This document shows positions 24,371 to 61,203 of a stretch of 64,000 bases of DNA, piece after piece (position 1 is the first letter of the stretch; each line of letters starts with the position of its first letter). The notes below the pieces were generated by a model, which did no database searches, was not told the origin of the DNA, and was given only the letters and a program-made list of their open reading frames with translations. The translations under genes and the position numbers were made by a program. Source of the DNA: Schizophyllum amplum (lineage: Eukaryota; Basidiomycota; Agaricomycetes; Agaricales; Schizophyllaceae); NCBI GenBank assembly GCA_007026445.1, contig VDMD01000036.1, positions 245,733-309,732 of the forward strand, read 5' to 3'.

Positions 24371-24405
24371 CAGCTCATCGCTCATAACGGCCCCGAGCTC
24401 AACTC

Positions 24406-38826: not shown

Positions 38827-39325
38827 GAGCGTCTTGTGCAAGCGAGTGCACGCTAGCAGTCTTCTTCTTACACGGTCATGTGACAGTTGAATTCGTGACA
38901 TGCCATATACCCAATTTGAGTCTTGGTCCGCACAGCGTTGTGCGCGTATGGGACAGTGAGTCGACCCGTGCTGTATATGGACCTCAATGGTGCACTTCTA
39001 CTACTATGGCAAATGTTACTAACACCTTTCACAACAGCGGTATATTTACTCCACACAGGCCCTTTTTGTGTGATTCGTGGCATCTTTCTACTGTCTAGAG
39101 ACTCTTGACTGCGAAGTGGGAAGATTTTTTTTCACTAAAATTTACTGAGATGCAGCGTCGACTCACGCCGTACGTCACTCTTCAATTACTTTGACACCTG
39201 GTGATCGACGGCTCCTTTCCCCATCTCCGTTTTCGTTTGTTTGTCAGGCGAGAGAGGCGTCTCTGCCGCCCAGTTTGAGAGGCGTTCCATTTCTCCTGGG
39301 GCTGGCTATACAACCTGTCATGTAT

Positions 39326-40516
39326 TCACATTCCGTGTGTTTTAGGTAAGATAGTAACAGTACAACGATCCTCTGCGATGGATGTCAACGCGATGGTGAT
39401 TGCTGCCCGGAGTACCCAAATACTGCGTGAATCCTTTTCGTATGGACTGTAGACAACGAGGTTCAGGCTCAACTTTTGAGCGAGTACGCACAAAAGCCAT
39501 CTACGCCACACCAGAGAGCATTTACCATCCGGATTGAGAGGGAAGAGAGCCCATTCCCGGTGTCCATCCAGGTAACCTTCTAACGCTTCCTGTCCGTGTA
39601 CGAAGATCCGAATGCAGCGCAAGGACGGTAGCCGCCGTGTGTGCGCAAGAGCAAACACCACGTGCGAAATTGCCGCCCATTCTTGACGTTTGTTGTCGTT
39701 CACATGCCTGACATCGAACACGATGTCGGTCAAGTGAGGCAAGGCTTGACGGGTAAGCAGATCTTTTTAAATGAACAAATCAGTGTCGAGCCCATTACAA
39801 TAAGGGGCAGGCTCACCGCACGATCCGTCAAGTTCCTCCAGACCTTCCACCTCTAGTATGCGTATAGAATCCGCCACGGCGTCTAGGGTAGTGCACATTG
39901 CGACCCAGTCGCAGTATCGCGGTAGGCGGACGAACTCCAGTAACGGTGCTACTCCTGTCGGACGCACGGGATTACTAGGTAAGCGCCGCCAAGTAGACAT
40001 AAGCTGATGCAGGGCGGGATACACGGAGGACATGGAGTGCATGAGATGGACCGGAGTTTGCGAAGGGAATCGTAATTCGAGTGTGCGCAGAGATGAAGCG
40101 ACCGTCTTTATGGCTATCATGAGCTGGAACACGAGGCGGCTGTCGACGCAGATGTCCGCGTGACGTAGACGAGGGAGTCGACGCAGGAGCGCTATCATAT
40201 CGGCTAGAGATGGGGCGAGAATGTCTTCGCCGGCCGGGTAGTTCCATCGCAGCGTACGGACTCGTGGCATTGTTGGCAGGTTTCGTATTGTGTACGCGAT
40301 GCGGATGTCCAACGTCTGTACAACATCCGCTATGTGGGGGAAGCTGTTTAAGAACTCCGCGTCGCGGGTTGACGATAGTGTGACGGTTTTGAAAAGGAAC
40401 GGTAAGGCAACCTCTCTCGTCTTCTTTGCCACGGCGGAGAGTGCCCAACACGTATCGCTGTCGCATTCCTGCATAATATATAGCAGAACCTCCGAGGGCA
40501 GGTGCTTTCGGGGCAC
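39326..40516 (-). CDS. F-box protein (start unresolved)
   Basis: Minus-strand exons about 40516-39817 and 39744-39326. F-box core: HLPSEVLLYIMQECDSDTCW, then ALSAVAKKTREVALPFLFKTV. A leucine-rich body follows (LRRLPRLRHADICV; SLRTLELRFP), and the second exon begins ALPHLTDIVFDV. The family is the basidiomycete F-box/LRR-like group, probable SCF substrate receptor. No ATG precedes the F-box in the open frame: the frame runs upstream through GTG to about 40570 without a methionine. A small 5' exon, a lost start or a mis-spliced model are all possible. Confidence 0.6.
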
Positions 40517-40693
40517 TAAATGTCTTTGAGGACGACGTACGCTGCATATTACAGGACCACTTACTTGTCGGGCGAGACAGATGACGGTTAAGGTAAGAGA
40601 TGGAATGCTGTGCAGAATACCCCTATCTTTTGCCTCATATCATAACAACCGTGGGATAATAACGGCAACAACTTAATACAGAGTTCAGTTGAC

Positions 40694-41017
40694 ATGTATT
40701 TGTTTTGTGGACAGGCAGTGCCCCTAAACTTGTATCCGCCCTCCATGTCCAAAGTCCAGCCCAAAGTAGCAGGAGCAGTAATGGCGACACCTCTTGCTGT
40801 GGATTTACCCAACGCCCCCGATGTACGTTCAGTGGCTATCGTTCTAGTCCGATGCTCATGCATGCTGTGGGCACAGATTACGCTGTGCGAGGAGTATGAA
40901 CGCTTCGTACTCGCCGCAGAAAAGTCCGAGGTGGCTGTAGATGCTGGTATGTTATCTTCAACCCGACAACATGAACTTAATCAGTGTTGGATTTCGAGCT
41001 GTATAGGTAAGATTAAA
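40694..41017 (+). pseudogene. SET-domain histone methyltransferase gene, 5' half
   Basis: Exons 40694-40946 and 41007-41017; the second is cut by the KDZ element after 11 bp. The possible start is 40694 or the ATG at 40745. Protein sequence here is not diagnostic (EEYERFVLAAEKSEVAVD), but its phase and frame continue exactly into the right-hand half beginning at 59594 when one TTAAA copy is removed. The gene was therefore interrupted in the coding region before its pre-SET domain, and this half alone would give only about 85-90 residues of unknown fold. Confidence 0.7.
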
Positions 41018-41460
41018 TAGTTGTCTCTCAGTATTTACTGAGGTGCTTGTTCTATTGACCATCAGTGGCTACTGACTCAGTAAGTTGGCCCTGCAACTAG
41101 TTGTCCTCCCCCTCTATAAGTTGAGGGCACATCTAGTTGTGTCTTCCAGTGGGATTGGCTGTACATCTAGTTAACCTGCTTTCAGTGAATTTGGCGGGAC
41201 ATCTAGTTGACCTCCTTTCAGTGAATTTGGCGGGACATCTAGTTGACCTCCTTTCAGTAAATTTGGCGGGACATCTAGTTGACCTCCTTTCAGTAAGTTT
41301 GGCGGGACATCTAGTTGACCTCCTTTCAGTAAATTTGGCGGGACATCTAGTTGACCTCCTTTCAGTAAATTTGGCGGGACATCTAGTTGACCTCCTTTCA
41401 GTAAATTTGGCGGGACATCTAGTTGACCTTCTTTCAGTAAATTTGAGCCTTGATTTAGTT
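41018..41460 (+). repeat. Left terminal inverted repeat with 36-bp units
   Basis: The outer 150 bp matches the right end in inverse. It is followed by eight 36-bp tandem units of the form tttggcgggacatctagttg. The core ACATCTAGTTG also recurs outside the array. Such subterminal repeats are usual transposase-binding sites. A 130-codon open frame through the array is an artefact of the 36-bp period. Confidence 0.9.
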
Positions 41461-41711
41461 CTTTCTCTCAATAGAGTGGGCAGGCAACTAGATGCGACAG
41501 GTGATATGCCATTGTCAGAACAGCAGTGATGCCTGGCATATAAATATTAGTAGATTAGCAATCCAGGGGCAAATAGTCCAGTCAGTAAGGTATGCGTAGC
41601 AACTAGATGTGGTGTGGTGTCTATAATAGAGATGAGCTGCAAATAGTGCGTTTATCAGTAAAATGGTGGGGGAATTAGATGCGGAATGTCTGCAGCTATA
41701 AGAGAAGTGTC

Positions 41712-44563
41712 CTAACGCCTGCCTTTGCCTTTGCCTTTACCGGTGTCCTTGTTCTTCTTCGCCGTGTTGCCCGCTCTCGGCCCCTGGGACTGAGCCAAGT
41801 TGCGGACGACCTTAAGGCTAGAAGCAGCTGCCTTAGATGTAGGCATGCGAGACCTTGTGCTGGCTCGTTGTTCAATGTGAGGGCGTTTCGCGGGAGGCCT
41901 GTCGTCGTCGGAGCCAGAGTCGGATTCAGGATCGGCCAGTTGAGAAGAAGGCACAGGGGCATGGGGTGCTATAGATGAGTTGGATGGGCCTGCATGGTCT
42001 TGCGGGTTGTCTCCACGCTTCCGCTTCTGGCTAGGTAAGGTCAGTAGAACTCAAACCTGGCAAAGACAATAGGAATCTCACCTCACAATTGGCCTATCAG
42101 CCGGCGAAGCTGGATCGGATTGTCCCTCCAGTAAGTGGCGGAACACCATCAAGACGTCGGCTACTGCATCATCCCACACTTTGCGCTCAACATCGCTAGT
42201 GACAACCTGCCCCCACCAAAAGAGCAAGAGCAAGACAAGAAGCAGGCCCTTAGGGCCTACTCTCTTAGTCATGGTGCTCATAGAGGGAGGGAGCGGGGTA
42301 GAGTGAAAGGCTCCTCGCTTCTCGTCCCATGCCCGGTCGGAAGGATGAATGCGGTGCCAGTAGTTGCGGAACAGGTTGGGCATAGACGAGATGTCGGCGC
42401 TGTCATGGCCTGTAGTCCAGTCACTGCCTGCCTTAATCCACTTGCCGATGATGGGCGGGGGCGCAGGCTTGATGGCCTTCGCCCTATCCGGATAACCAGC
42501 TGCCTGCTCGAGATCGAAGAGCACTGAGCAGCAGTCATGATAGACTGCGCCCCACTGACGTCCACCACGCAGGCCTAGGAATGCAGAACGCATATAGGCA
42601 GGCAAGGCAGCATGATTCGTAGTGTCCCAGAATGGGCCCGCAGTACGTCCCGGTGCCGAGGTGAATGTGAAGGCGGTTGTTGGGGGGGCTGTTACTGCCG
42701 CAGTAGAAGGGGAGGCTGAAGGCTCTTCATCACTATCGTAAAGAGCGACACGGTTGATAGGAGTACGCTTGGCCGTTGGCCTAGGGGTCGGCTTAGGCAC
42801 GGTCTTGACTGTTGCGTCGACCTTGCTCGGTGTAGAAATCATCACCTCCACTGTCTTCTTCGGCTGAGGGTGGCGGCGTGGAGTCGTATCAGCCATGCTC
42901 AGAGCAGGGTTGTCGACCTCCATGCTGTCCTGCTGTTGACGGCGGCGACGCGGAAGAGGAGTGGTGGGTGGTGAGGGTGTACGCCGATCCCGGACCATTG
43001 GTGCGGGCTGAGAGGCAAGGATAGCGTCCATATCTTCATCATCCGTAGGTTTGGGGATTGATGTAGGTGCGTCTTCCATACCGGGCAGCTCATCCTCATC
43101 CACTCCTGCACCCTGTACATCGGAATCGGAATCACGCCCTTCGTCGCATGAAGACTCGGCAGGTAGGGGCTCTGATGTATAGCACCTAGAACGAGGGATA
43201 TGCTTGTCACGATAAGATGTTGACGATGTTGAGGGGGCAGGAAAGTCTTCGTCATTCACCACGGCACGCGCCTCACATTCTTCTGCAGCTGAAGGAGGTC
43301 AGAAATAGGCCGCAAGGTTGATAACGGTAGGCTCACTGAAGCAGCGACGGGCGAATTTGACAATAACATCCTCAATCTGAGATGTACCTAGGACATCAGC
43401 TTCACAGAGACGCAGTTGGGCCATGTCCTTTGTAAAGCCCGAGTGAGCGCTAGAAAACATGTATCAGCATAGTGGAAATAGTCTTCAGGCAACAGTCTCA
43501 CCTGCGACACTCAATCTGGCCACCTTTGTTAGGCACCGGCCCTGCCATCCATATGGAAACCACCATTCCGAAGCGCCTGGCCAGATAATCCACTAGTGGA
43601 AGAAGAACTGTTCCAGCTTCTTGCAAATGCCTTGTATGTTGTCAGTGTCTGAAAGGCAAGGCAAGCAGGTGAGGACGTACTGCGCATATGTAGATGCATT
43701 CTTCTCCTGCTCCCCTCTCAGCTTTTCATCCAGATTACGCTCAAACGCCGCAAGCTCGCTTTCGTATGCCTCATCCAGTGCTCGCTTAACAGAGGTCTTG
43801 ACGGTGTCGTCTTGCTTGTCGTACCATTCACGGCAATACGCATTCCGCTGCTTCAGCTCCTCCTTCTTCTTCTCCTCCCGGGACATGCTTGCTGACCGCT
43901 TCGTCCACTCCACATCCCAGTGCTTGCGTATCTTGCTCTCGAAGAAGTTGCGTTGGATGAAGAAGTCGAGCCGCTGGCGGCGAGGACGGGTGATGGTATT
44001 TGTGGCACCTATCGCTTCTTCAATGACGGCCATAACACCTTGCTTGCCCATCGGTTTTAGAGTGTTCCGGAACCATGAACTGATCTTCTGCAATGATGAA
44101 ATAAGTAAAAGAAGTGGACCTGGAGGATAGAACGCACTGTATGCAAGACCTTTGCTTTGGCTGCACGAGCCTCCTTGTCCTTCGGCGACTTGAAAACCAT
44201 CTTGCGCTCCCAAGCTTCCAGGGTCTTGAGGTCTGGATCTTCGCCAACATCATCGTCATCTTCAGCAAGTGCGTCGGTGTCCTTGACGGCCGCGTTGTCC
44301 GAGTAGTCTATGGCGGGGTCGTCCACGTCCGGGCCGTCCACAAAATGCCAGAAGTAGAGCTTGCACATATTGCCGTAGAATTTATTGACAGCAGCATACC
44401 CGTTGTTGGAGGCCGTATGCCAGGCGTCATAGTGTCGGCGGAAGACCTTCTCCACAGACGGGATGACCCAGCCCACGGGACCGTGCTTCTTCTTCTTGCC
44501 GTCCGCCTTCGGCTTCTTGGTGGTCTTCTTGTTACGGCGGCTGGAAGAAGACTTGGAGGACAT
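41712..44563 (-). CDS. KDZ-element cargo protein of unknown function (866 aa)
   Basis: Six exons, minus strand: 44563-44138, 44087-43681, 43630-43502, 43449-43337, 43288-42082, 42030-41712, all phases consistent, no stops. The N-terminus is lysine-rich. Then comes a helical region with aromatic residues (HGPVGWVIPSVEKVF; MCKLYFWHFVDGP), a coiled-coil-like segment (MSREEKKKEELKQRNAYCRE), a compact block (LARRFGMVVSIWMAGPVPN), a long acidic, proline/serine-rich middle, and a basic tail (KNKDTGKGKGKGRR) suggesting nuclear location. I recognise no catalytic motif. It is the leftmost gene inside the transposon, next to the TET/JBP gene. The intact frame implies recent selection or recent arrival. 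Confidence 0.75.
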
Positions 44564-44795
44564 GCTTGATAGCGGGCTGTTTGTCGTGGATGCAAAGAGG
44601 GAAAGGAAGGAGGAAGAATTAAAAATGGAAATATATTCAAAATGATGGTCCAGTGTAAACAGGGGCACTGGCAAGTCCCGATCAGGTAATTTGGTACGTG
44701 TCGAGGCATCACGTGAGCGTGGCGGCTGCATTATGGACTGCAGAATTGAAAGCATCAAGCCAGGGTACACGGTATGTCTATAATACTGTCTATCT

Positions 44796-45984
44796 CTACC
44801 GCGCTGAATACAGATTTCCATCCCATCCATTCTGGCTATGCATCCATGCCGTGTTCTGCTTGTCTGAGTGGCATACCAAAGATGCGCGCTCCCCCGTATA
44901 GACAAGGTTGAAGTGTGTAATGCGGCCAGAGGGGAAGACAAGCAAGTCGCCCTCCCGCAACGGCAACACAAGACCCGGCTCATACAGACAAAGCTCACCA
45001 CCTTCGTGGTCCCCGATAATGATGAGTGCACACCCAATATAATCCTTAAGGTCACGATGAGCCTTGGTGGCGACGTTGATGTTGAGGACAAAGCCAGTGA
45101 ATGGATAGGCGGGGTTGGTGGTAGCATGATGTCAGCCATTAGGACGAGCTCCTCGTGGACGTCTGGAAGGCGCTCATGAATCTATGGCGGAATTAGATAC
45201 AAAGTAGATACAGACAGGGGGAAAACTAACCTTGTCTGCCATCCACTGGAAAAGTTCCTGCATGGACTCGGAGAGCGCTGCAAACACAGGTCGGTTCTCC
45301 TTGAGCTCCTTGGCCACGTACGGAACAAACTGGTGGGAATTTGTACGACCACCCTCAGTGCGCAACAAAAGGGGGTGCACATCAGGTGGGGCACTGTCTC
45401 CCTGTACAATGCGTGTTAGGCGTGATGGAAAAGGTTAGATGCAGACATACCTTTGTGGCACATCGATTTGTAGGTTGAGAAGTGCATGGCGATAAACGGC
45501 TTGAGGCACTCCAAAGCCTGCTATAATATCTTTCAGCTTGAATAATGCACAAATCAAAACAAACAAATACCTGATAATTATCCAGGTTTGAAAGCCTGTA
45601 ACTTCCAAGGCGGCCTTGAGATTGTCACGCAAGGAAATGCGTATGTGGGCTGGCATGTTGGAGCACAGATATGCCACCAGGGACTGATCGATACCCCCGA
45701 AGCAAGACCTCTGTACTAAAAGGAACATCAGCCCAGCATAAAACAGATGGTACAGGAAACACTTACTCATCGAAGGCCGCACGATCAACCTCAACATAGG
45801 AGGAGTCCTTCATCCGGACACCCTTCTTGAAATTCTTGTTCATCTGTATGATGGATGTCAATATGGAACACTCCTTTGGGAGGAGTAGAAGACGCACCAG
45901 ATCAACCAACTCCTCCACCGATGGAACAGTTATCCGGTGCTCAGCCGCGGTCCGCTGATCGTTTGACCATATCTGACGGGGCAT
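44796..45984 (-). pseudogene. TET/JBP-family 2-oxoglutarate/Fe(II) dioxygenase, frameshifted
   Basis: Six exons, minus strand: 45984-45898, 45843-45767, 45708-45571, 45529-45451, 45401-45231, 45181-44796. The double-stranded beta-helix core shows the H-x-D iron ligands in ATKAHRDLKD, GGELCLYEPGL, the distal histidine in RITHFNLVY, and the 2-oxoglutarate-binding arginine in GERASLV. TET/JBP enzymes oxidise methylated bases in DNA. Upstream homology-like text is HERLPDVHEELVLMADIM. That segment and the catalytic core are in different frames; the last exon is 386 nt, one short of a whole codon number, with the shift at about 45126-45140. No splice signals explain it. Either a 1-nt deletion killed the gene or the assembly has an error. 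Confidence 0.85.
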
Positions 45985-46106
45985 CTTTATCCCGTGTGGG
46001 ATAAGGTGCCCGACGATTACCGGGGGCGCCTAGGTCAATAGGAAGGGTATGGACGTGGACGCCATCAAGATTCGCCTTGTCGGGTACATGATCTGCTACT
46101 TGACGA

Positions 46107-48404
46107 TCACGTTTCTTCTTCCGGCGTGAGGGGTGGTGGGAGTAAAGGATCCGAGGTGGATAGAACAGAGGCTGACGTTGTTGATGTAGCGCCCTTGTTG
46201 AGAAGGCCAGATTGGGTGATGAAGTCCATGTTGATGACTGGAACGTCGGTGGGCACTGCCTCTCGCATGATACCCCAGACTGTTAGGTTGCGCGGAACAC
46301 CCTTCAGCATTCTGCAGAATGTAATGTCAGTGCGGTAATATTTCATGCAGGAGCACGTACAATGTGGGAATGCTATCGAAGTACTTGTCAGACAACAGCA
46401 AATCATCAGAACGTATCTGGGCTGGAAGGCCATAGTGCTGTTGGTACGCGGGTGCAACCATAGCGCCGAATTCCATGGGCAGCTTGCGGCGGATGTAATT
46501 GAGTGACGGGATGATGCCCTGGCGTATGCGGTGGACTGTATCCAGATACACCTCATTCTCTAGAGCTGGCATCAGTCCCAGTGTAGCGCATAGATATCAA
46601 GGTCAACTCACTGCAAGTCTTGTCGTCGTAAGGGCGGCGGAGGAGGTTAGCAAGCCAGAAACTTCCGAGATGCATGTCTGGTCTTGTAATCGGGTCTTGA
46701 GGTCCTTGATGGCGATGAGGAGTAGAAGGTAGATGGTTCCTTCCAGAGGCTTAAGTATCTGTCACCGACAAGCTTAATACATCAACATACCTCCAGATGC
46801 AAGGTAAGCATAGCGACGCCCGTTGGCGATCATTCTCTGCAGACGATCCCTACGTTTGACGAGAATAGCCTTGCGTGTCTTGGCGTCGGCTTCCGAGAGC
46901 TTGACACCCATGTCGGTCTCCGGATCATCGTAGTCCAGATAGGCCTGCACAGCCTGCATCTGTACAAAATCAGAATCGGGGTGTTGCGCCTTGTACTCGT
47001 ACTCAAGGCTAGGCAGTGAGTTAGCGAAATAAACAACAGGTGCGAGGATCCCAGACTTACCTAGAGTAGCGAGCAACCAGCTGGATGAGGTTGATCATTT
47101 CTAGGAAGAGGAGGCCAAATTGCTTCTTGCCAATCTGCCGACAGCGAAGAAAGAGCTGCTGGAACGTAGCACGCCCCCAGTCGGCCCCAGCAGAAATCCC
47201 TCGGAACTCATCGCCTCTGAAGAACTCGAGTACGCCGTCCAGGTTGGCATCGACTGCATCAGATATGGGTACTGAGAGGCTCTTGATGATGGCATGAATG
47301 TACGCTTCATCGCCTGGTGGAAGATGAGGGAGGTCTTCGGAAAAGACATATCGGCGGTCGCGCGCCCGAGAAGGCTTGGGCGCACAACCATTTCGGTTGT
47401 GCTCCGGCGTCCATTGGATATTCGGGTCTGCCGCTGAGTCCCCGCCATCGTCGTTCACCACCGAGTTCCCGCTGCTGTTGTTGGTCGCAGAGACTGCCCT
47501 CTGAATCTGCTCTCGCGAGATACGGATGAACAGGCGCTCCTCGTGCGGTGGGGGAGAGGGTAAAGCCGCAGCGGCGGGCAGCACCCCGTCATCGTCATCA
47601 ACATCGTAGATCTTGTGCGCCACGACAGGAACGGGTGATGGGCGATGAGGTTGAATTACAAGAACCGGATCATGAGCAGGGAATGTCTGGCACGCTGGAG
47701 TAGCAGGTGATGAGCATGACGGGGTGGGAGAGGGCGAAGAGATGCTGGCAGTTATGGAAAGGGACGGCCGTACGCGAGATGTCCGGTAGCTCTACAGACA
47801 TCGGTAAGACAAAAGTAGCATGATATAATGATAGCGCACGTACCTCCGGTCCCGCATCACCCTCTCTCGTAGAGGCAATAGTATCACGGCCTGACGACGA
47901 AGCCTCGCAGCTACGCGCGCGTGCCACAAATGTACGCTGACGCCGCATGCGCTCGAGAATGGGGGCGAGCTCGTCATTGTCTGCCGATGCTTGTGTGACG
48001 TGCTTTGCCAGCAGCGCCTCCACTGCCGCCGCATCCTCCTCTGAGAGCAAAAACATGGGCTGAATATCATCGTCAGCAGCACCCCAGTCAACATCTGAGC
48101 AGACATACCTCCGGCTGACGCGGTGGTGCAGCAGGCGGTGGTGCAGCAGGCGGCGGTGCAGCAGGGTGTGGTGCAGAAGGCCGTCCTTCAAGCCCGGGTT
48201 ACCTGAGCGGGTGGGCAGGGACACGGTACGCGGACGGCAGGACCAGCCGGGTGCGAGGGTCAAGAGAAATGCGATTTGGGCGGACAGTGGGTATGGTGGC
48301 CAGACAAAGTTGTGATGTCCAAGCAGGAAGGGAAGGGATCACGGCGGTCGTTGGGACGGGTTGTGGGGGCCGAACGCGCGGGGTCGGAATATTTTTTGGG
48401 GAAA
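46107..48404 (-). CDS. KDZ-element cargo protein of unknown function (start unresolved)
   Basis: Minus-strand exons: about 48404-48203, 48114-47844, 47791-47061, 47008-46791, 46749-46612, 46559-46361, 46311-46107, phases consistent. Protein-like blocks: RISLDPRTRLVLPSAY, SEEDAAAVEALLAKHV, a long helical part (DEAYIHAIIKSLSVPISD; KQFGLLFLEMINLIQLVARY), DMHLGSFWLANLLRRPYDD, and LPMEFGAMVAPAYQQHYGLP near the end. No zinc cluster or enzyme motif is visible. The frame is open 5' to about 48404 but contains no ATG, so a 5' exon or the start is missing. It may be silent, or start within the G+C-rich leader. It is transcribed toward the TET/JBP gene with a 122-bp gap, so the two may be co-regulated. 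Confidence 0.6.
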
Positions 48405-48446
48405 ATCACGCCACGTCAAAAATAATCACGGGCGCCTCGCGGGCCT

Positions 48447-48460
48447 CCCCGGGCCCGGGG
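48447..48460. promoter_or_regulatory. Palindromic 14-mer, copy 1
   Basis: CCCCGGGCCCGGGG, perfect palindrome, just upstream of the open 5' part of the minus-strand cargo gene ending at 46107. Two identical copies sit upstream of RING genes 1 and 3. Confidence 0.5.
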
Positions 48461-49429
48461 AGGCTGCCCAAGCTGAACTCAAGGGAAAGCGGAAGGGGGC
48501 AAGGCCGTGTTATTCATTGTCTAACTGGTATGATATGGCGCTTGTATATGTAGCTGATGTTGTGGGCCGAAAGGGAGCGTGTTCGTGGGGGTCGTAAACC
48601 CGTCAGATGTGCATACCCGCCCAACCGCGCCGCGAATTCCCGGTGCAATGAGGACTCAAGCGGTACGCGCTCGGGCGGGGTGCACATGTGACGTGGTGGA
48701 GGAGATGGGGTTGGGACAGATCACGGAAGGCATAGCCGACGCCAGCGCAACGGCGTGTGGCGGACGCTGGCGGACGCTGGCGGACGGTGGCGGACGGTGG
48801 CGCTTGCGAGCCGGCTGCCATTCACCCCCCTATGCACTATTCATCTAACTGCTGTGCATCTGGATCAGCTGTGAAAGGAGTGTGGTGTGCAGTCGCGCAC
48901 CTGGCGCGCGTCCGCGTCCGCGCACCTGGCGCGCGTCCGCGTCCGCGCACATACGCCTTTGAACTCCTTTGTTGATGTAGTTCTCGCACATTTCCATGAA
49001 TTATTATGTCGTTGCCCTCTGAAGTCACGTAGAGGAGAATGAAAGGAATGGGGGGAGGTCCGCGCAGCCAGAAACGCTGATGTGGTTGTGGCCGAGGAGA
49101 GGCGTCAGCGACAATGCCGCGGCAGTCCGGACCGGTTGCCGAACCCCGTCGCCGACATGCTAAGTATTGCCGGTGAGCCCCGCCGCATGCATTTCGTGGC
49201 CGAGCGTAAAGCAGCGTTGTTCACTTATGTACTGTAGCTAGCTCAACTCAGTCACACTTGGAACTATGCTAGTAGATAAAGTGGGGGGGGGGGACGAAAG
49301 GGACGAGGCACAATGGGTGCACACAGCGGTGAGGGGGAGTACAGCGGCATGTGTCGTGGTGGGGGCGGCGTGACAAGGGGGAGGATGATATCCAGGAAAA
49401 GAGAGGCGCTGTGGAGAGGGAAGCGTGCT

Positions 49430-50540
49430 AAGACGCGTCAGGCGGCGAGGGAGCACGGAAAGACGGCGAGAGGGATTGTGGCGAGGGTGAGGGCGATGGT
49501 GATGACGAAGGGCGAGGCGGCAGATGTGTTGAGAGGGAGCAGGGGGCAATAGCGAAGTGCGAGGCGACGAGGGAACGATGTGGCGAGGCAGCGGACGTGT
49601 CTGGCGAGGCGGCGGACGTGTTGATGGGGGCGGCGGGAGATCGGTGAGCGGAGCGGCGAGGGGACAATGGCGAAATGGCGGTGATGGCGAGGGACGGCGA
49701 GGGTGAGGGGACGATAAGGGTGAGGGGGCGGGCAAGGGTGAGGGGGCGAGGGCGAGGGGACGATAAGGGTGAGGGGGCGGGCACGGGTGAGGGGGAGGGG
49801 ACGATGAGGGTGAGGGGGCGGGCAAGGGCGAGGCGGCGGTGAGTGCGAGGGGACGGCGATGGTGAGGGGGCGGGCAAGGGCGAGGCGGCGGTGAGTGCGA
49901 GGGGACGGCGATGGTGAGGGGGCGGCGAGGGGGAGGGGACGATGAGGGTGAGGGGGCGGGCAAGGGTTAAGGGGGCGAGGGCGAGGCGGCGGCGAGGGGG
50001 AGGAGACGGCGAGGGGGAGGGGACGATGAGGGTGAGGGGGCGGGTAAGGGTAAGGGGGCGAGGCGGCAGTGAGTGCGAGGCGGCGGCGAGGGTGAGGGGA
50101 CGGCAAGGGCGAGGCGGCGGCGAGGGGGAGGAGACGGCGAGGGGGAGGGGACGATGAGGGTGAGGGGGCGGGCAAGGGCGAGGCGGCGGTGAGTGCGAGG
50201 GGACGGCGATGGTGAGGGGGCGGCGCGAGGGTGAGCGGCGGCGAGGGTGAGAAATCAGCGAGGCGGAGAGCGTCGATCACCAGTCACTACTCACCGCTTT
50301 CACCCCTCGCCCTCGCCACCACCTCGCCATTGCCCCCTCGCCCTCGCCGCCGCCTCGCCCTCGCGCCGCCCCCTCACCATCGCCGTCCCCTCGCACTCAC
50401 CGCCGCCTCGCCCTTGCCCGCCCCCTCACCCTCATCGTCCCCTCCCCCTCGCCGTCTCCTCCCCCTCGCCGCCGCCTCGCCCTTGCCGTCCCCTCACCCT
50501 CGCCGCCGCCTCGCACTCACTGCCGCCTCGCCCTCGTCGC
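49430..50540. repeat. Purine-rich minisatellite with 176-bp inverted arms
   Basis: The plus strand is almost pure purine (gagggtgaggggacgat-type units) to about 50250, then switches to pyrimidine. Arms 50056-50231 and 50358-50533 are near-perfect inverted copies of 176 bp separated by 126 bp. The mirror and inverted symmetry could form cruciform or triplex DNA. Apparent proline/arginine-rich frames here are by-products. Confidence 0.85.
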
Positions 50541-50876
50541 CCTTGCCCTTCAACGCTAGTGCACTTCCGGCTTCCGCTATAGGTCCATCTTGCCGCTCCA
50601 CGGCGCCACGTACCTGCCGCTCCCTCTCGCCACCTTCCCCCCTTGCCGCTCCATCTCAACATGCTCACCGCCTCGGTGCCTCGCCCATCCCTCACCCTCG
50701 CCGCGTCGCCCTGCACCAGCACCTCGCGCAGCGGTGACTCCCTTATGCGCGTCGAATTCCACGCACACGCTGTTAATTAGATATTGAAATGTATATCATG
50801 TGCACTACAATAATGACATGAATTATCTACATGGACGCGCTGCTTCCCCTCTGCAGGCTGCTGGGCTCCTTGGGTC

Positions 50877-50890
50877 CCCCGGGCCCGGGG
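50877..50890. promoter_or_regulatory. Palindromic 14-mer, copy 2
   Basis: CCCCGGGCCCGGGG, 115 bp upstream of the RING gene 1 start, followed by CAAGCTG as in copy 1. Confidence 0.5.
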
Positions 50891-51004
50891 AACCCGCAAG
50901 CTGGGAGCACATGGCATCCAATTTGTTCCGGGTGCCGCGCGATCGCTGCGAGAACCGCGCTCGCACAACCTGCCCTCTGCCCTGTACCTCAGCGCTGTCG
51001 CGAG

Positions 51005-51928
51005 ATGCCCCCGTCCCGCACCGACAAGTCAAACGCGCATCCTTCAGCGGCAGCAACAGCGCCGCGGCGTCGCCCGCGCCAGCCGCCATCTGACACCGCC
51101 GCCGACGCTCAGGCGGCCATTCCGCCTGACACCGGTATTGACGCGGCGGGAGACGCGGAGAACACCACATTCTCCGCGGACACTGCAGACGCTATGCATA
51201 TGGTGAAGCAAGAGCCCGAGGACGAGTGGAAGGGCCCGCTGTTTCTCTTTTACGAAACGAGCAGGCTCCGGGGAGGCATCAAGAAGGCGATCAGGGGCTG
51301 GGAGGAGTGCGAGAAGGACTGGGTCAAGTGCGCGAAGGGCTGGGACAAGTGCGAGAAGGTGCGTGATCTATCTGCATACGTGAACAGCTGCTCATTGGCC
51401 CTGCAGGCGTTGGACAGTACAACGGCGGACTACGTAGCTGTCAGCAAGGGACTTTTGATCACCGAAAAGCGGCTGGAGGAAGCCAGGGCTCGCCACCGGG
51501 AGCTTGTCGGTTCCTCCATTGCTTGTCAAAAGGACTTGCTCAAGGTATCCACCTCTAACTTGGAACTGCGTGAGGAGATGGTGCGTTCCCTGCTGTCACT
51601 GCACTTGCCCCTCTCACTTTGACACAGAAAAACCTGAAGGCCCTCTTTCATTGTTTGCTCTGCGACGGACGGATCACCGAGGCCTATCAGTTAGTCACCT
51701 ATAGCCACTGTCGCCCTGATTACTGACTTTATGTTCAGAGCTGATCGCTGCGGGCATTCCTTTTGCCGTGCATGCCTGGACGCCTACCATCACATTCATG
51801 ATGGCTGTCCGTCGTGCAAGTCCATCCCCCTGGCAGGCGCGGGATGGCCAGCGCCGAACGTCGCCGTAGATCTACTCATTCGCCAGATGACCGAGATCGA
51901 AGAGAAAAGTCGGCAAGCCCGCGCTTAA
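51005..51928 (+). CDS. RING-finger protein 1 (KDZ cargo)
   Basis: Four exons: 51005-51358, 51407-51580, 51628-51689, 51739-51928, 259 aa. The N-terminus is disordered, with an acidic stretch holding VKQEPEDEW. The middle is coiled-coil (WEECEKDWVKCAKGWDKCEK; EKRLEEARARHREL). The C-terminal C3HC4 RING is CLLCDGRI, then CGHSFCRACLDAY, then CPSC. RING fingers recruit E2 enzymes, so this is a probable E3 ubiquitin ligase; dimerisation through the coiled coil is likely. The 62-nt third exon encoding the first ligand pair has the same length and phase in all three tandem RING genes. The ATG at 51005 precedes MPPSRTDKSN; frames further upstream cross the palindromic 14-mer and are unlikely to be coding. 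Confidence 0.8.
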
Positions 51929-52175
51929 GCAGCGGTGGGGAGTACACTCATTACTTCTAACTGGCCATTAAGGCCCACTCCCTTAACATACCCTTCACCA
52001 ACTACATTACTAGAACATCGATTAATCTAAGCATCCTTGGTTTTTTTTGGTGTTTTGTTGCCTGGTTTTAACTTACATAAGTGGTGCATGAAGGTGTTCT
52101 GCATCACAAAGGCCACGCGCCCGCGCATCTTGCTTCTTGCCATCATACTGGGCAAGTTGCTTCGCATCCTCAACC

Positions 52176-52781
52176 ATGCCAGGGCCCAACAAATGTCGGA
52201 GTCATGCAGCTCTTGTTCAGAACCTACTGTGGTTGCGACGTGGAATCAGGCTTGAGCGGGAGGTGCTGACCAGCCTACCTCATTCGTCGCAAGTGGCTGA
52301 ACAGCAATTGCAGACATGTGCTGTCATGCGCGAAGAGCTTTCAGTCCTACAAGAAGAGGTCCGCGTATTGCAAGAGCAACTGCAACAGAACACCGTTACT
52401 ATGCAGAGAGACATTGACGCGGCTGAAGCGCGGGTGGTACACCGTCATCACTCATCTCCGCAACCCTATTGCTCACCATTTGTGGCAGGCAGATATTGCC
52501 GCCTTGTTTGAATGTGGAGTCTGTTTCAAGCGTATCAGGGACCCATATCAGTAAGCACGTCCTTCTTGGCAGAAATATTCACTGATGCTGTCAAAAGAGG
52601 TTGCGCATTTGGGCATGTTTTCTGCCGCTCCTGTATTGACGATTGGTTTGCGACTTCGCCATCCGGGCCTACCTGTCCAGACTGCCCTGAAAAAGATCAA
52701 GATGACTCTGATGCATGGCCAGTGGCTAATCCTTGGGTGCGATATGTGCTCGCTCAACTGAACAACATTATTCCCACGTAG
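52176..52781 (+). CDS. RING-finger protein 2 (KDZ cargo)
   Basis: Three exons: 52176-52433, 52489-52550 (62 nt), 52598-52781, 167 aa. A coiled coil (REELSVLQEEVRVLQEQLQQ) is followed by a RING: CGVCFKRI, FGHVFCRSCIDDW, then CPDC. It lacks the disordered acidic leader of the neighbours, so it may be a 5'-shortened paralog; no 14-mer lies upstream. Probable E3 ligase by family. The C-terminal tail VRYVLAQLNNIIPT resembles the end of RING 3 (KYFIHQLNAIAPP), supporting common origin. Confidence 0.75.
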
Positions 52782-52982
52782 AGCAGCAGTTCTCACTAAC
52801 GCCTATCTATCTGTCCTTACGTGCTTATTATCCGCTAATGTTGATCGACTAATAACTACACTACGTGGTCAATCTAACGGTATAACGGGTGGCTGGCGCG
52901 ATATGTGACACGTTAGTCGTCGGTGACTGGTGTGACACAAGCCACCACTTGTTTCTCTCCTTCATGCCGCCTGGCTGAGGTT

Positions 52983-52996
52983 CCCCGGGCCCGGGG
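52983..52996. promoter_or_regulatory. Palindromic 14-mer, copy 3
   Basis: CCCCGGGCCCGGGG, 140 bp upstream of the RING gene 3 start: similar distance and context to copy 2. Confidence 0.5.
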
Positions 52997-53135
52997 AGGG
53001 CACGAGGTAGCTTGATTATTTATGTTTGCATAACATTCCTTTGCCTTCTCCTCACGTCTTCCTCATGGTCGCCCCGGCCTCCTGCTATCGTCTCACTTCC
53101 TTCTCGTCCAACCCCCCTTGCTCGGAGCGTCAAGA

Positions 53136-53946
53136 ATGCCTGCAGCACGCCCCACCCGCAGTCACCCCGCCATCTCCTATAATGGCAATCCGTTTGCGGG
53201 GCGTCTTGCACCAAAGGTCTCCAGCAAGGTGGTGGTCAAGAAGGCTGCCGTCGACGACCAGCACGTCTACGAGATCAACGACGACGATGAAGACGTCTCA
53301 CTAGTCTCCCCGGTTCATCAAGGAGCCCCCGAGTCTCGTGAGGCCATGATCGTGGAGAGGAGCAAGCTCCGCGGTGAGCTGCGTCGTGCACAAAAGGTGT
53401 GTAGCCAGCTGTAACACCTTTTGCACTGTTGACCGGTACCACAGTCTACGACGACACTAGAGCTGGAGTTGATCCGGCTCAAGGCGGAGTCCCAGATTTT
53501 GAAGGCGCAAGTTTTGGAGGGCGCAACCACGGCGGTGGCTGATGCTGCCATCACCGTGCAGTTGCGTCGGGACCTACAGGCCTCCCAATCACAGTTGGTG
53601 TGTTATACGTGGCATTGCTAAAGGTGTTACGCTGACGTGTCCCTCAGGCTGAAGTGGTCTCCATCTTCGAATGCGGCATCTGCATGGAGAGGATAGATAA
53701 TCCGTATGAGTGCGTTGCTCAACCATAGTCGCCGACTGCTTGACTGACATTCTTTTCAGGGCTAACGTCTGTGGTCATGTCTTTTGCAAGGCTTGCATCC
53801 TTGAATGGGCTGAGGCTTCGACGTCTGCGGTACCTTCCTGCCCCACCTGTCGTCTAGGTGATGAAGAAGACTTTGTTCTTGAGCCAATTAGCAACCTTTC
53901 TGCCAAGTACTTCATCCATCAGCTCAACGCCATTGCACCCCCGTAA
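53136..53946 (+). CDS. RING-finger protein 3 (KDZ cargo)
   Basis: Four exons: 53136-53396, 53445-53597, 53648-53709 (62 nt), 53760-53946, 220 aa. The leader has an acidic patch (YEINDDDEDVSLV) that could act as a SUMO-interacting motif. A coiled coil follows (ELELIRLKAESQILKAQVLE), then a RING: CGICMERI, CGHVFCKACILEW, CPTC. Same plan and exon phases as RING 1. Probable E3 ubiquitin ligase. It is separated from the KDZ transposase gene by 370 bp and on the same strand. Confidence 0.8.
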
Positions 53947-54316
53947 GACTTCACACTTGTCCGAGCACACCGTTATCTGCCCTTCATTAAATACCATACC
54001 TTATCCTACAACATACTGTCCTTCCCTCCCTAACTTACACTGGCACTACGCCTTGAGGTGCTCAAATATTTTACTTCTTTCGATACCTACACGGACACCA
54101 TACTTGCTCCTATGACCCAACATTACCTCGTTTTAATCTTTTATACCATATGTTTAGTGCCATAATAGAACAGAACTTCTGTTCCGGAAACTGAGAGCGA
54201 GAGAATAGGTTGACCAGCTAGCCTGCCCGCCTTGCCGCCGCCTGCCCAATATTCCAAATTAGGCAACTTCTAAGTTGATCCTGTCTCCCACCCTACAGCC
54301 GCCCGCTCTTGCCGTC

Positions 54317-57300
54317 ATGTCCAACTCTCCACGCAAGGAAAGACACAAGCAGTCCGCTTCCTCCTCCTCCAACACCGTCCAGAATCAGCTCTATACCCAC
54401 CATCAATACCATTCTCAGACGTTTACCGGATCCGACAACCGTATTCGCGCTCAGCACAAAACCCGGGTGCTCTCACCTGATGAGCTGCCTTTGCAGAACT
54501 CTGGCTTGCTGGATTTGCCAACCTTGAAAGACAATCCGTTCAATGAGGAGAGCCTGGCCTCGGAAACGTCTCCAAACGACCCATTGCTGGAGGAAGATCC
54601 TGAGCTGCCAGTACCGGAGGCGTCACCGAGAAAGAGGATGCGCTACGATACCTCGGTGCGTACTCTTCACATCTTTTATTTTCTTGATATCTGACAAAGC
54701 CATGCAGGACTACCCAATGCAGGTGTGGCTTCCGCACCGAGACGAATATCTGGACGAGATGGTGCGATTGGAAGGCCGCGGCTCCGACACGTATCACCTT
54801 CAATGTGGCGAATGCAATACCAGTCAGAATGTCTTCTATCGATGTCGTGGGCAGGAATGCGGGGGTGGCCAGATGTTTTGCAAGACCTGCATTGTGGTTG
54901 ATCATCAACATTGCCCTCTACACTGGATTGAGGTGCGTCATCTGACCCAAGGCTGCAAGCACGTACTGATCTACACATTTAGGAGTGGAAGAACGGCTGC
55001 AGATTTGAACGTGTTTCCTTGAAGGAGCTAGGGCTTCGTGTTCAACTTGGTCATGCGCCAGGCTCCTCATGTAACATTCCTATCGCGGCAAACAAAGACT
55101 TCATGGTCATCCATTCCAACGGCCTTCATTCTGTAGCTGTCGACTTCTGTGGATGTGATTCATTTCTCGAGCGCCGACAACAAACTCTGCGCGCAGGATG
55201 GTGGCCTGCAACAACTGTCGATCCTCAAACATGCGCAACCATCAATTGTCTACGCCAGTTTGTGCTGCTCAATGCTCTTGGCAGCGTATCCGCATATGAT
55301 TATTACCGCACGCTGGCCGCCCTTTCCAATAATGATGGCTGTGTGAAGATAATGGTAAGTGGCCTTTTCCGTGGCGTGCCGTACTGTTTGGGCTAATTGA
55401 ATTCCAGGATCGGCGACACACCTTCGGCATAATCTTGAAGCAGTACCGACACATATCTATGCTCAAGCGTGGTGGCCGTGCTCACGATAATAGCGGTGTA
55501 GAGGGGACAAAAGGAGGCGAGCTGGCCTTGGCATGTCCCGCCTGTCCCCACCCGTCTATCAATCTTCCTCCCAATTGGGAGAAGACAGATGTATCTGAAG
55601 CGTGAGTACTCACCTGCTCATTCGTTTTGTGGTGCTCAACTTGTTTTCTAGGTTTAAATACTGGTTGTATGTTGCGGAGGATGCCAATTTCCGCCTGCGC
55701 AATCGGCTTGTTTCCAACGACAGCAGTGATCCAGTACTGGGTGATGGCTGGGCATATATGGTGAAGAAGGACGTGTATTCCGAGTACCTGAAGAAGTCTG
55801 TGGATGCAGATGAGGTATGTTCATATCCTGGGCTGTATCCACAATATGTCTGATCGTCAGTGCAGATCAGTAGCTGTGCCGCATTTGCGGCACTTTTCTT
55901 GGCGAATATGAAGAAGAACAAGGGGCTTCGGTCGACAGGAATCGGGGGAGTTTGCTGTGCGCGACATAACATGTGGCGGCCGCAAGGCCTGGGGGAGCTT
56001 CAGAAGGGTGAACGGTAAGCTTGCTGATCGCGATTGAGGCTGGGCCTATTGACTGACGCTGGTTGACAGGTATTCAAACATGACGTTCATACTATTCAGT
56101 GCTCTTCTGGCGGTCAACATCCTCACCGTGGTCTTGTCTTACGATATCGCCTGCCAGTTTTGCAAGAATGTCGGCTCACGCATGAAGCAGCTACCTTCTG
56201 ATCTCTGGCTGGATAGAAAGGTTGACCTCATCATGGTCGTCCCTAATTTCCATCTGCTTGCTCATCGGGACGAGTGTCATTCTCGGTTCTCCTATCACTT
56301 CCTTACCGGCGGCGCAAACGGTAACGGAGAGAGCATAGAGCAGAACTGGTCCGGAATGAACGGCATAGCGTATCAGGCCCGTCATATGGGGCCTGGCGGC
56401 TTTCGTCTTCTCATAGATGATACTAGAGGCCATTGGAACTGGATGAAGACCATTGTCCTTCGTGCGTCTTCCTTATGCTCTTCTACTTAGCCATACTGAC
56501 CTGCTGCCATAGCTGTCGTCCAACGCCGGCGTCTTTGGGAAGCTATACAAGAAGCAGCATCTCACGGCAGCGGGTTTAAAGCCTTCCGGGATGCACTGTT
56601 GGAGCGGCGACCAGACGATGTTGTCCAGTGGGATGAGAGCATGGATCGGTGGCAGACGGATAACGACCAACCCTCTCCCTTTCAGGTGTCTAGACAGAGT
56701 AAGTTCTATGACAGTTATGAGTAAGCCATGACTCACCGTAAAACATAGCACAAACCTTGAAAGACGTCAAGCTACAGCTCGCTCAAGAAGAACGTGTAGA
56801 GACCGCAAGCGGGTCAGAAACTCCGCACGACAAATCACCAAGCTCTCTAGTACTGCTAGCGGTCCAGATTGAGGATATGCAGTATGTACCAAGCGCTTTT
56901 ACTAGCTATCTAGCTCACATCAACCGTTCTAGACTGAAGCTGCGCTCCAAACTGAAGACTACCGATACTGCAACACCAACGCAAGCAGTCGAGTTCGAAC
57001 ACCAGCGTACAGCCATTGTGCGCTTGATAAATCAGCTGCGCGCAGTGCAAGATATTCATATGCCTCTTCTGGAGAGCAAGTTATCGGATGCCACCCTCCA
57101 GTCTATGAGCGTCAATGGGTCTCTACAGCCAGAAGACATCAAGGTTATGCTCCCATCACAGATATCCCCACCAGCACTTCGCGACGCCATCTGCACCCCT
57201 GGCTTGGTGGATATAGAACAACGGGTTGTCTATGCGGCTGCTCTGGATGCCCTTGACGACGTCCGGCATGGCCTTCGTGCGCGCTCGGCGACATACGATT

Positions 57301-58130
57301 TCAAAACCAAGAACTCTGTTGGAAACAAGGCCAACACCCGCGCTCAGTCTGTTCTACGCGAGATCGACCTGAAGGTTCATCAGGGAGCTCAACGATACCG
57401 GCGGCATAGGAGGGCGTATCTGGCCCTGAAGGGAGGAGGTGCTTGGGAGGAAGAGCTCAAGGAACTCAAGGACGCTGATGTACGCTTTCTCAACGAACGG
57501 TCTCTAACAAACGCAGAAAGGGATCAGGAAGATCAACTGCGTCGACAGGGCCTTCTACTCACCTTGGCTCCTGCTTCAGTACCCCTTCATGGTGCAGTGG
57601 CTGCAGGAGAAGGCCGTAGAACTCTGTCCTGGATCTGGTTTCATTCCAATCCTGACTCAGAGACCTCTAGCGATACCGTGGTGGAAGGTGAGTGGTTTGC
57701 GCGTCCATTCTAACAGAAAAACTGACTGTTGTTAGCGCTTGGTGTGGAATATTGTCGTGCCAAGGCTCGGGCAAGACGATGGCATGAGGAGATCATCTTG
57801 CTAGAAGAGGAGATGCGTCGGGCCTTGGTCTACTGCTCATGGATGTCGACATTGTGGGAGGTGCGCAGCTCACAGCGCACAACCACTATGACTCCAGCAT
57901 TAGCTGAGGGAACATCTGCATATGCCTTTGATCAGAGTCATATGTGGAAGAAGATGGAGGAGAGGATGAACAGAATGTGGGGTCAGTCTAGGAAGGTCGC
58001 TGCTGCTCACCTGCGTACCATGAATGGGGAAGGAGAAGTGATTGGAGAACTTACGCTAGAGGAAGCGCATGCACGGGACATAGGGCAGGACATTGGGGAA
58101 ACTGAGGAGACATGGATGTATGATGTATAG
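54317..58130 (+). CDS. KDZ transposase with CxC cysteine clusters
   Basis: Ten exons: 54317-54655, 54708-54932, 54983-55354, 55408-55601, 55652-55814, 55866-56014, 56070-56461, 56513-56698, 56749-57687, 57736-58130, 1117 aa without a stop. N-terminal cysteine clusters of the CxC type (CGECN, CRGQEC, CKTC; later CPACPHPSINLPPNW). KDZ core: DANFRLRNRL, AANxK-type ANMKKNKGLRSTGI, LQKGERYSNM, SYDIACQFCKN, NFHLLAHRDECHSRFSYHF, GNGESIEQNWSGMN, HMGPGGFRLLIDD and NWMK. The acidic residues in DANF, YDIACQ and GESIEQ are the likely RNase H-fold catalytic set. The C-terminal coiled region ends with ARARRWHEEIILLEEEMRRA. It cuts and pastes elements carrying the cognate TIRs. The gene looks fully intact, so this copy may be autonomous. 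Confidence 0.93.
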
Positions 58131-59240
58131 CATTGGGTTGTATAGCTGGTATCTATTTGTGCAGGAGCCACAGTATCTTCTTGTGGTCAGCAGGCCTCTA
58201 CGATCTCACTCAGATGAATTAGCGCCACCGGGGAATGCCGAAATAATTGATCAGGTGGCGTTCCGACCAGATCCGGCTGCAACCTCGCTTGTCTTCTCCC
58301 ACCACCACCACCACCACCACCATGCTTCCGCTGCCCGGTGAGTGGTCGGCGCCTGTTGTGCTGGCACACAGGCGCCGTCCTCTCTAAGGGCCCTCTACAG
58401 CCGCCATGCGCGTCGCCCTCGACGACGCGCGTCTTCGGGTGCGATCGGGCACGTAGCGCGCAAGACCGGGTCCGGAGCGCCCGCCTTTCCCAGCGCGCCG
58501 CCGTCACGGCCATCACCCTGCACGCAAGCCAGTGCCTTCGCCACTCCACGCCCGTCCTGCGCACATCCACGCTCGCGTCGGAGCTCTCGACGGTGGCTCT
58601 GCCGCGCGTCCGCCACCGCCGTGCACCCTGCACAACTGGCCCCCTACCCTGTCCACTAGCCCCTCCCCCACCGTGTGCTCGACGCCAGTGCCTTCGTCGC
58701 CATTGGTGCTGCTCGTTGCTATGGTGACGAGTGCTGCCGCGGCGCTGTGTGGGCGGGCGGGCTGGAGCGAGCGCAGGGGAAGGTGGATGGGCGGTGCCGG
58801 TGCGTGAGCGGATGTGGGAGCCTTTGGCGCAGGCTGGGTGTGCGCACGCGCCCAGCTGCGCGAGCAGGCAGAGCTGAGCGAGCGAGCGGTGAGACGGCCG
58901 GAGGTGTGGCAGCAGGGACCAGCTGGCGCGGGAGCACACGCCAGTTGGTAGGTGCAAGCGCGAGCAAGCTGAGTGCTGGAGCCGGTGCGGTGGCACCCGA
59001 TGTGCGTATGCATTTCGAGGACAGGCGTGAGCGGCATGGCGTGAGCGGACAGCTCGAGCCAGGGTGGCGTGGACAGTGGCGCGGGCGGGCAGCAAGGAAA
59101 CTAGTTGTAGGCTTGATTTTGTGGGATGGACATCTAGTTGTACAGCTTGATTTTGTGAGGAGGACATCTAGTTGAGGCTCAGTAGCTACTGTAGGCAGAC
59201 ATTTAGATAGCCCCCCCCCCCCCCAATATGATTGATTCTC
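58131..59240. other. GC-rich 3' flank inside the KDZ element
   Basis: Contains a (CAC)n run at about 58299-58322 and a GC-rich stretch with no believable gene, then ACATCTAGTTG cores from about 59120 leading into the right terminal repeat. A run of about fourteen C lies near 59211. Confidence 0.6.
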
Positions 59241-59588
59241 CACAACAAAATGTCCAGCCAGATTTACTGAGGCACCCTATTTGGACCACAACTAGATGTC
59301 CCGCCAAATTCACTGAAAGGAGTTAACTAGATGTCCCACCAAATTTACTGAAAGAAGGCCAACTAGATGTCCCGCCAAACTCACTGAAAGAAGGCCAACT
59401 AGATGTCCCGCCAAACTCACTGAAAGAAGGTCAACTAGATGTACAGCCAATCCCACTGGAAGACGCAACTAGATGTGCCCTCAACTTATAGAGGGGGAGG
59501 ACAACTAGTTGCAGGGCCAACTTACTGAGTCAGTAGCCACTGATGGTCAATAGAACAAGCACCTCAGTAAATACTGAGAGACAACTAG
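59241..59588 (-). repeat. Right terminal inverted repeat with 36-bp units
   Basis: The inverse of the left end: the outer 150 bp matches with very few changes (for example one T/C difference in the gacgcaac/gacacaac stretch). About four or five 36-bp units follow, fewer than the eight at the left. It ends CAACTAG before the target copy TTAAA. Confidence 0.9.
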
Positions 59589-60798
59589 TTAAAGCTACTT
59601 ACACTAGTGGGATTTCAGATCACGCGAATCTCGCGAAAGTGCACGTCCGTAACTCGATCGACGGCGATGGTCGCCCCCCCGCTAGTTTTGTATACTCGAA
59701 CAGAATTTGGTACGGGAATAATGTCGCCGTGCCGTCTTCTAGTCCCAGACACTGCAGGTAACCCTTATGCGCTGTTGTTCGCTTCTAATTTAACGTCAAT
59801 AAATCAGGTGTACCGGACCTTGTCGTCCCAGTGGACGTTGCGCTTGTCTTAAATATCAACGGCAGTGGACCAAGATATACGGCATACAAGGATTCGGATA
59901 CGACTCGACCAAGCGTGTCTTGAGGTTCGACGTTCCCATATTCGAGTGCAATTCTCGCTGCGGATGCGACGCGTCCTGCGTCAACAGGGCGAGTGGTTAA
60001 TTCGGTATTAAACGTATTGCAATTGACCGACAGTGATACGGCAGGTCGCGCAGCAAGGCCGCACTGTAGACATGTCTGTCGAAAAAACAGTTGACAAAGG
60101 CTGGGCGGTGCGCAATAGTGACAGCCCTATAGCAGCGGGCCAATTTGTAGGGATATTCGCTGGCGAGCTTATCACGGCAGCCGAGAGCGAACTTCGTACC
60201 CTGTACGTATTTCGAAAGCCCGTGGTCGCTCGCTGTATAACGATCCTGCCAGACTGTATTCCAGCCAGCCAATGCAATCTATATTCGACCTCGATTTCTG
60301 GCATATAAGGTAGACCGGTGCTATCCGTGTTACGGCTATCCCTATCGACATCGCTCCTAATGCTTTTGCGTGAGCAGGGGACACCAACCTTTTTTCTCGG
60401 TTGACAGCCATCGTGTAGGCAATGTGCGTAATCATATTCGCATGTCCGACCGTGTATATTCAACTGTCGTTTACAGTTTACACGCTTCCTCAATCATTCT
60501 TGCGAGCCAAATATACGGCCTGTCGCGGTCTACGTCGATGCTGTGAGTGGACTATCACAATCCGAGACCACCTCCTTACAGAATCAACTCGCAGCAACGC
60601 ATATCAACGCCCCTTATAGCCTTTTTTGCCCTCCGAGATATACAACCAGGAGAGGAACTGTGTATATCTTACAGCGGCTCATACAAGCCCATTCTCGTAT
60701 CCCAATCGACAGCCGATGAAACCGCAGGGAATGACCACTTCACTACTGCGTTTGTTTGTCTGTGCGGAGCTGAGACGTGTAGGTCTCGCAGGTTATAA
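59589..60798 (+). pseudogene. SET-domain histone methyltransferase gene (SUV39/Clr4-like), 3' part
   Basis: Exons 59594-59757 (after target copy 59589-59593), 59808-59988, 60045-60202, 60265-60309, 60408-60423 (16-nt microexon), 60477-60542, 60595-60798. Pre-SET cysteines: CTGPCRPSGRCAC and PIFECNSRCGCDASCVNR. SET motifs: GWAVRNSD, FAGELITAAE, FDLDFWHI, RFLNHSCEPN (cofactor-binding NHSC), FFALRDIQPGEELCISYSG. Post-SET: CLCGAETCRSRRL. This family writes H3K9 methylation for heterochromatin. The intron after 59988 is GC-AG. All frames are intact, but the gene has lost its 5' end to the KDZ insertion and probably makes no full protein. Confidence 0.88.
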
Positions 60799-61203
60799 TG
60801 GTAGTGCTTATTCGTATACGCGACGTACCAGATTATATAGCGCTGTGTGCCTTTGAGAAAGTTCCCAATGGCTACGATCATCAATCATGCGATGTACTAG
60901 TCGTAGACGTACCTGCCATTGTTCGTTGTAATGGGGAAGGAGGGTAGCTCGACGCATCATATCGCTTTCCAAGAAAATGTACTTGCTATTTCTTACGTGT
61001 CAACCCAGCATTGTCTCACCAGACCAGTTATACACCAAAGATACGTTTTCCTGCATGACGATGCGTCTAATCTCCTCATCAGAAATACGACCTTCGGCAT
61101 CCAATCGTGCGCGGATGGTACTCTCTGGTTCTTTTCCTTTCTCAACGCCGATGTACCGCTCTGTACCAATCGCATATTAGTACGGCTACACCGAAGTCAC
61201 TGA

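Follow-up and report, generated by a model that had tools for sequence, protein, structure and literature searches.

A large TET/JBP-bearing KDZ transposon, most like Kyakuja, very probably inserted in an intron of an extra SUV39/Clr4-like gene of Schizophyllum amplum

TET+ Kyakuja transposons are KDZ-superfamily elements of Agaricomycetes that are reported to make 7-bp duplications, to end in CA..TG and to lack TIRs (Kojima 2025, PMC12730594), the CA..TG termini being reported for two Laccaria bicolor Kyakuja families. Zisupton and Dileera are KDZ elements with a related transposase, some of them with TET/JBP. The duplications reported for Zisupton, and within Dileera for Zisupton-1_PGr, are 8 bp long, versus 7 bp in the element described below (PMC12730594). 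That element lies in a window of 64,000 nucleotides (the whole stretch of DNA analysed) from Schizophyllum amplum, at positions 245733-309732 of contig VDMD01000036.1 (G000:C240:245733-309732), and the assembly searched comprises 49.65 Mb in 309 contigs. We are highly confident that a divergent extra SUV39/Clr4-like gene received, in a ~51-nt intron, a KDZ cut-and-paste transposon that carries TET/JBP, makes 7-bp duplications and stands nearest to Kyakuja; the target, GGATTTC, lies close to the 3' end of the intron. Boundaries, duplication, transposase domains and TET-like gene are read directly from the letters, and the intronic position is deduced from the paralog together with the empty site as reconstructed.

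The element occupies 40996-59609 (+; 18,614 bp), with ends GAGCTGTATAGGTAAG...CTTACACTAGTG, and is flanked by GGATTTC at 40989-40995, the first seven flanking bases on the left, and again at 59610-59616 on the right, a perfect 7/7 match. Its inverted arms, 283 nt each and 94% complementary, lie at 41001-41283 (+) and 59322-59604 (-), and 36-nt repeats extend from within the left arm past its inner edge, from 41107 to 41502. The outermost 22 nt of the two ends are identical at 12 of 22 positions, ungapped. In a genome-wide pattern search permitting two mismatches, the left-end motif GAGCTGTATAGGTAAGATTA and the right-end motif CACYAGTGTAAGTAGCTTTA each occurred six times with no mismatch used, Y being T in three of the right ends and C in three; the reversed patterns, run as a control, gave no occurrence. 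We take 40996-59609 as the element because these motifs recur at the sister copies, the flanks outside them differ between copies, and the 7-bp duplications sit outside the motifs. The first-pass annotation had already described a transposon splitting a SUV39/Clr4-like gene, and this much is upheld by the arms, by the Pre-SET and SET domains and by the solved structures matched, but the boundaries it gave (41018-59588) do not stand. Nor does its choice of TTAAA as the duplication: TTAAA at 41013-41017 and 59589-59593 is element sequence, the position reading ATTAAA at three, ATTAAC at one and ATTATC at two of the six left ends, and in the sister copies the same letters extend outward past TTAA, with ~20 nt recurring at all six left and all six right ends.

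From these six left and six right ends, the family numbers up to six copies. Four copies could be simply paired, three of which, namely those in the window, at C255:316-322 kb (GCAATGC) and on C271 (GGCAGAC), show a 7/7 duplication, while the flanks of the fourth, on C168, match at only 5 of 7 bases. The C255:316-322 kb copy is a 5.9-kb derivative of the element; that on C271 is a second large copy, 83-88% identical in the pieces compared, which has CxC2. Another part of the same contig (G000:C255:283532-299070) holds four family ends with no simple pairing; one left and one right end there, not facing each other, are both bordered by GTGCAAG (7/7), which suggests an inversion, and the leftover two ends match at 2/7. 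The 31 remaining left-right pairings, this leftover pair included, give at most 4/7 matching bases. Two flanks were also scanned: the right flank of the C271 copy (L042, G000:C271:49000-52000; one strand) encodes a Copia-type reverse transcriptase (RVT_2, 4.9e-59), and the left flank of the C255b copy gave no Pfam match in six frames.

The KDZ transposase domain (PF18758) is encoded in a single frame at 56053-56439 (+) and covers profile positions 93-217 of 217 (8.2e-28; 98 bits, cut-off 26.6). Upstream, at 55019-55336 (+), lies the CxC2 cysteine cluster associated with KDZ transposases (PF18803; 6.6e-39), for which at least 39 matches were counted genome-wide among 45 candidates scored. A TET/JBP-like 2OG-Fe(II) dioxygenase gene at 44799-45404 (-) is recognised through its protein relatives, 116 of 219 candidates at E <= 0.001, many of them without a precomputed domain; the best is a Schizophyllum commune protein with PF12851 (1.8e-92, 72% identity, 95% of the query). 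Its Pfam Tet_JBP score is weak (17 bits, below the cut-off of 34.9), and the fragment matched none of the solved structures in the PDB up to E 1. Neighbouring conserved stretches lie in different frames when compared with the S. commune protein, and the window gene would be either broken or carry an unrecognised splice. Three RING-like patches, all (+) and all below the Pfam cut-off, are found at 51740-51820, 52611-52685 and 53767-53853 (the last with 24.5 bits against 27.3), and ten open frames of the element matched no Pfam family above cut-off. GC-rich repeats with a ~17-nt period at 49650-50545, inside the element, form a large inverted repeat with 180-nt arms at 50056-50235 and 50354-50533 (99% complementary). 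Elsewhere in the window, a 1289-aa open frame at 31163-35032 (+) belongs to a Gypsy-type retrotransposon and encodes a reverse transcriptase, an RNase H, an integrase and a chromodomain.

Set beside TET+ Kyakuja (PMC12730594), the element agrees in its KDZ transposase with CxC2, its TET/JBP-like gene and its 7-bp duplication. As to TIRs, its outermost ends, at 12/22, form no clear inverted repeat, but the arms just inside them are 94% complementary. It differs in its GA..TG termini (+ strand), where the left GA replaces CA and the right TG is as reported, in the 283-nt inverted arms and 36-nt repeats just inside the ends, in its length of 18.6 kb and in its three sub-cut-off RING-like patches. 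By these features it is a KDZ transposon bearing TET/JBP that most resembles Kyakuja.

The interrupted gene begins with the 5' exon(s) at 40694-40946 (+), ending GATGCTG in phase 1, with a tentative start codon; a possible 54-nt intron inside exon 1 was spotted by eye. Its 3' part, encoding the pre-SET, SET and post-SET regions, spans 59619-60798 (+), with exons at 59619-59757, 59808-59988, 60045-60206, 60269-60309, 60378-60423, 60477-60542 and 60595-60798. The model with the element in an intron thus has eight exons, 1092 nt and 363 aa, its start and first exon being tentative, and a GC donor for the intron at 59989; the nine exons totalling 1098 nt proposed in the first pass were not reproduced, a nine-exon model with the exonic join coming to 1128 nt with stop, or 375 aa. 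The joined intron model matches Pre-SET (2.9e-16) and SET (2.7e-18) in Pfam, and all nine pre-SET cysteines are present and invariant over 12 aligned sequences. Its best matches among solved structures are H3K9 methyltransferases, including Cryptic loci regulator 4 (Clr4) and SUV39H2, and its best named homologs come from mushroom-forming fungi, first of all Schizophyllum commune; we take their genera to be Agaricomycetes. The gene resembles SUV39H/Clr4 H3K9 methyltransferases in its pre-SET, SET and post-SET cysteines and differs from them in that the model, whose N-terminus is tentative, has no chromodomain match. By its domains and homologs it is a member of the SUV39/Clr4 family, with putative H3K9 methylation activity.

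Once the element and one of the two GGATTTC copies are taken out, a GT-AG intron of 51 nt remains, GTATGT...TTTCAG (GTATGTTATCTTCAACCCGACAACATGAACTTAATCAGTGTTGGATTTCAG), whose 5' part with the GTATGT donor lies at 40947-40988 (+) and whose acceptor AG lies at 59617-59618 (+), a length in line with the 50-68 nt of the gene's six other modelled introns. The restored acceptor is in phase 1, within an Asp codon (G|AT), and lies eleven residues upstream of a conserved Asn. In the C17 paralog, too, an acceptor falls at this residue and in this phase (G|AC), with a sequence that C253 shares; the donor of the C17 paralog is uncertain, being either GC or a GT 12 nt further on with the phase kept. We place the element in the intron because of the ends of the sister copies, the duplications and this intron position in the paralog. 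The empty site is a reconstruction, a search of the assembly having turned up no uninterrupted allele of the gene and none that differs from the first-pass join. It predicts an empty allele reading ...GTGTTGGATTTCAGATCACG... between the exons rather than GTAAGATTAAAGCTACTTAC, and thus differing from that join.

Pre-SET matches at E 0.001 number three, in an exon-by-exon search that intron-split ones may escape: the window locus, C17 and C253. These last two contigs, 98% identical over 4.9 kb, look like haplotypes and both carry the second SUV39/Clr4-like paralog that the first pass had suggested looking for. Identity to seven basidiomycete homologs (seven of 96 proteins) is 40-48% for the window gene and 42-63% for the paralog, and since the paralog is nearer to six of the seven and equal at the seventh, the window gene is a divergent extra copy. 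There may be further SET genes elsewhere in the genome: the weaker matches to the SET protein include C283:51216-51368 and C239:108427-108579, on contigs 95% identical, at 45% over 52 residues with one stop, and others on C299, C235, C29 and C2.

As regards alleles, the upstream flank (38500-41017) matches C179, C293 and C10 over its first ~785 bases only, and the downstream flank matches C152 by overlap and C293 weakly (73% over 231 bases, 76% over 95). The window ends where its contig stops, and 60384-64000 is identical to the end of C152 over 3,617 bases (100%), an unmerged contig overlap; on this identity C152 is the overlapping continuation of C240 and no second allele. C46, which matches the window at 18000-26665 (94%, 87%, 95%) and 28108-28555 (97% and 96%), probably represents the other haplotype for that part of it; of the 27 listed matches to the SET protein, none falls on C46. 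The region of the first match includes an open frame with a helix-loop-helix domain at 20558-21448 (-), within a stretch that C46 carries as a 94% identical copy, and two points of match that lie ~1.4 kb apart in the window (26665-28108) are separated by ~60 kb of additional DNA on C46 (C46:121060-182801). The suggestion that the region is heterozygous thus found no heterozygous allele behind it, while the alternative view of a young insertion is consistent with the perfect duplication and the open frames, which point to a fairly recent event.

The reading proposed in the first pass, in which an element at 41018-59588 duplicated TTAAA within an exon and its loss would restore an exact 365-aa protein, draws on a join that is indeed open and in frame. 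In local alignments to 12 homologs the exonic model scores higher for six, by 1-4 points, with the extra residues aligned, against three for the intronic model and three ties, a split that does not decide between the two. The sister copies tell against it: the TTAA-region letters and ~20 nt beyond recur there and so are not host exon, the 7-bp duplications fall outside these letters, and the differing outer flanks argue against one ~40-nt target common to all sites. The codons AAG ATT AAA / GCT ACT TAC come from the transposon ends and the intron: of the join's 36 extra nucleotides, 11 stem from the left end, 16 from the right end and 9 from duplication and intron. A 60-nt pseudo-intron ending at TATAG in the left end preserves the frame just as the 51-nt intron does. 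The in-frame join would thus be a coincidence, best explained by the transposon's own end sequences, and we consider an exonic empty site extremely unlikely. We attach hardly any probability either to a mis-join having put the element in the gene; C240 does end with the window, whose last 3,617 bases recur on C152, yet an artefact is not expected to place the same 7 bp, without a mismatch, on both sides of the element, as seen at sister copies. The first pass also proposed that loss of a silencing enzyme could favour the element. The gene is of the SUV39/Clr4 family, and the element's TET/JBP-like gene is of a kind proposed to counter silencing (PMC12730594), but the insertion is a single one in a family of up to six copies, it lies in the intron of an extra copy, the paralog nearer to homologs remains on two haplotype-like contigs, and the TET-like gene has a frame break or an unrecognised splice. 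That the element gained from breaking an H3K9 methyltransferase and the hit was selected receives no support from these data, and we give it next to no weight.

A last alternative is a tolerated insertion, in which splice-like letters at the element ends would let the whole 18.7-kb intron be spliced and the enzyme be made. The letters in question, a donor-like GTAAG at one end and a branch-like CTTAC followed by AG at the other, lie in the ends at 40996-41012 and 59598-59609, where GTAAG and CTTAC are unchanged in six copies. The termini of the window copy read GAGCTGTATAG|GTAAG...CTTACACTAGTG, those of the minus strand CACTAGT|GTAAGTAG...CTTACCTATACAGCTC, and GTAAG falls within the motifs at six of six left and six of six right ends; the host donor and acceptor are intact and the frames open. 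On the minus strand the letters are present at 6/6 ends of each kind, while on the plus strand the right-end AG (CTTACACTAG) follows CTTAC in three of six copies only, being GG in the other three (CTTACACTGG). Moreover, GTAAG and CTTAC are reverse complements, so that one common end motif yields both, open frames fit a young insertion equally well, an intron of ~18.7 kb stands against 50-68 nt for the six others, and one scanned flank each of two other copies revealed no intron location. The element recalls introners, intron-making elements that are likewise mobile and end in splice-like letters, but differs from them in having hit a pre-existing intron, in its 18.6 kb and in its own transposase (PMC9860276). 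We therefore judge a tolerated insertion very unlikely, and the broader notion that the conserved termini are portable splice signals, by which a giant KDZ intron would be removable from messages and insertions partly silent, highly improbable as well.

Returning to a KDZ transposon inserted in the intron of the extra copy, the host intron would have grown to ~18.7 kb, compared with 50-68 nt for the six others, and its correct splicing seems unlikely. Transcription entering the element would encounter, in the left end, the acceptor-like TATAG followed by GGT AAG ATT AAA TAG, that is, an in-frame stop after four codons, and splicing into TATAG would yield a protein truncated upstream of the pre-SET domain. 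Because the long intron is unlikely to be spliced and use of TATAG meets this early stop, the interrupted copy is probably inactive, through ordinary insertional mutagenesis. The TET-like enzyme, if working anywhere in the family, would have modified cytosine as its target, not the host gene.

Only the element's size and cargo set the case apart from the ordinary. It illustrates that joining two halves in frame across a supposed duplication does not prove an empty site, and that sister copies in the genome must first fix the ends. For the family itself, the anatomy, with ends, 7-bp duplication and subterminal arrays, is now documented for a KDZ transposon that is very large and TET-bearing, and for a 5.9-kb derivative.
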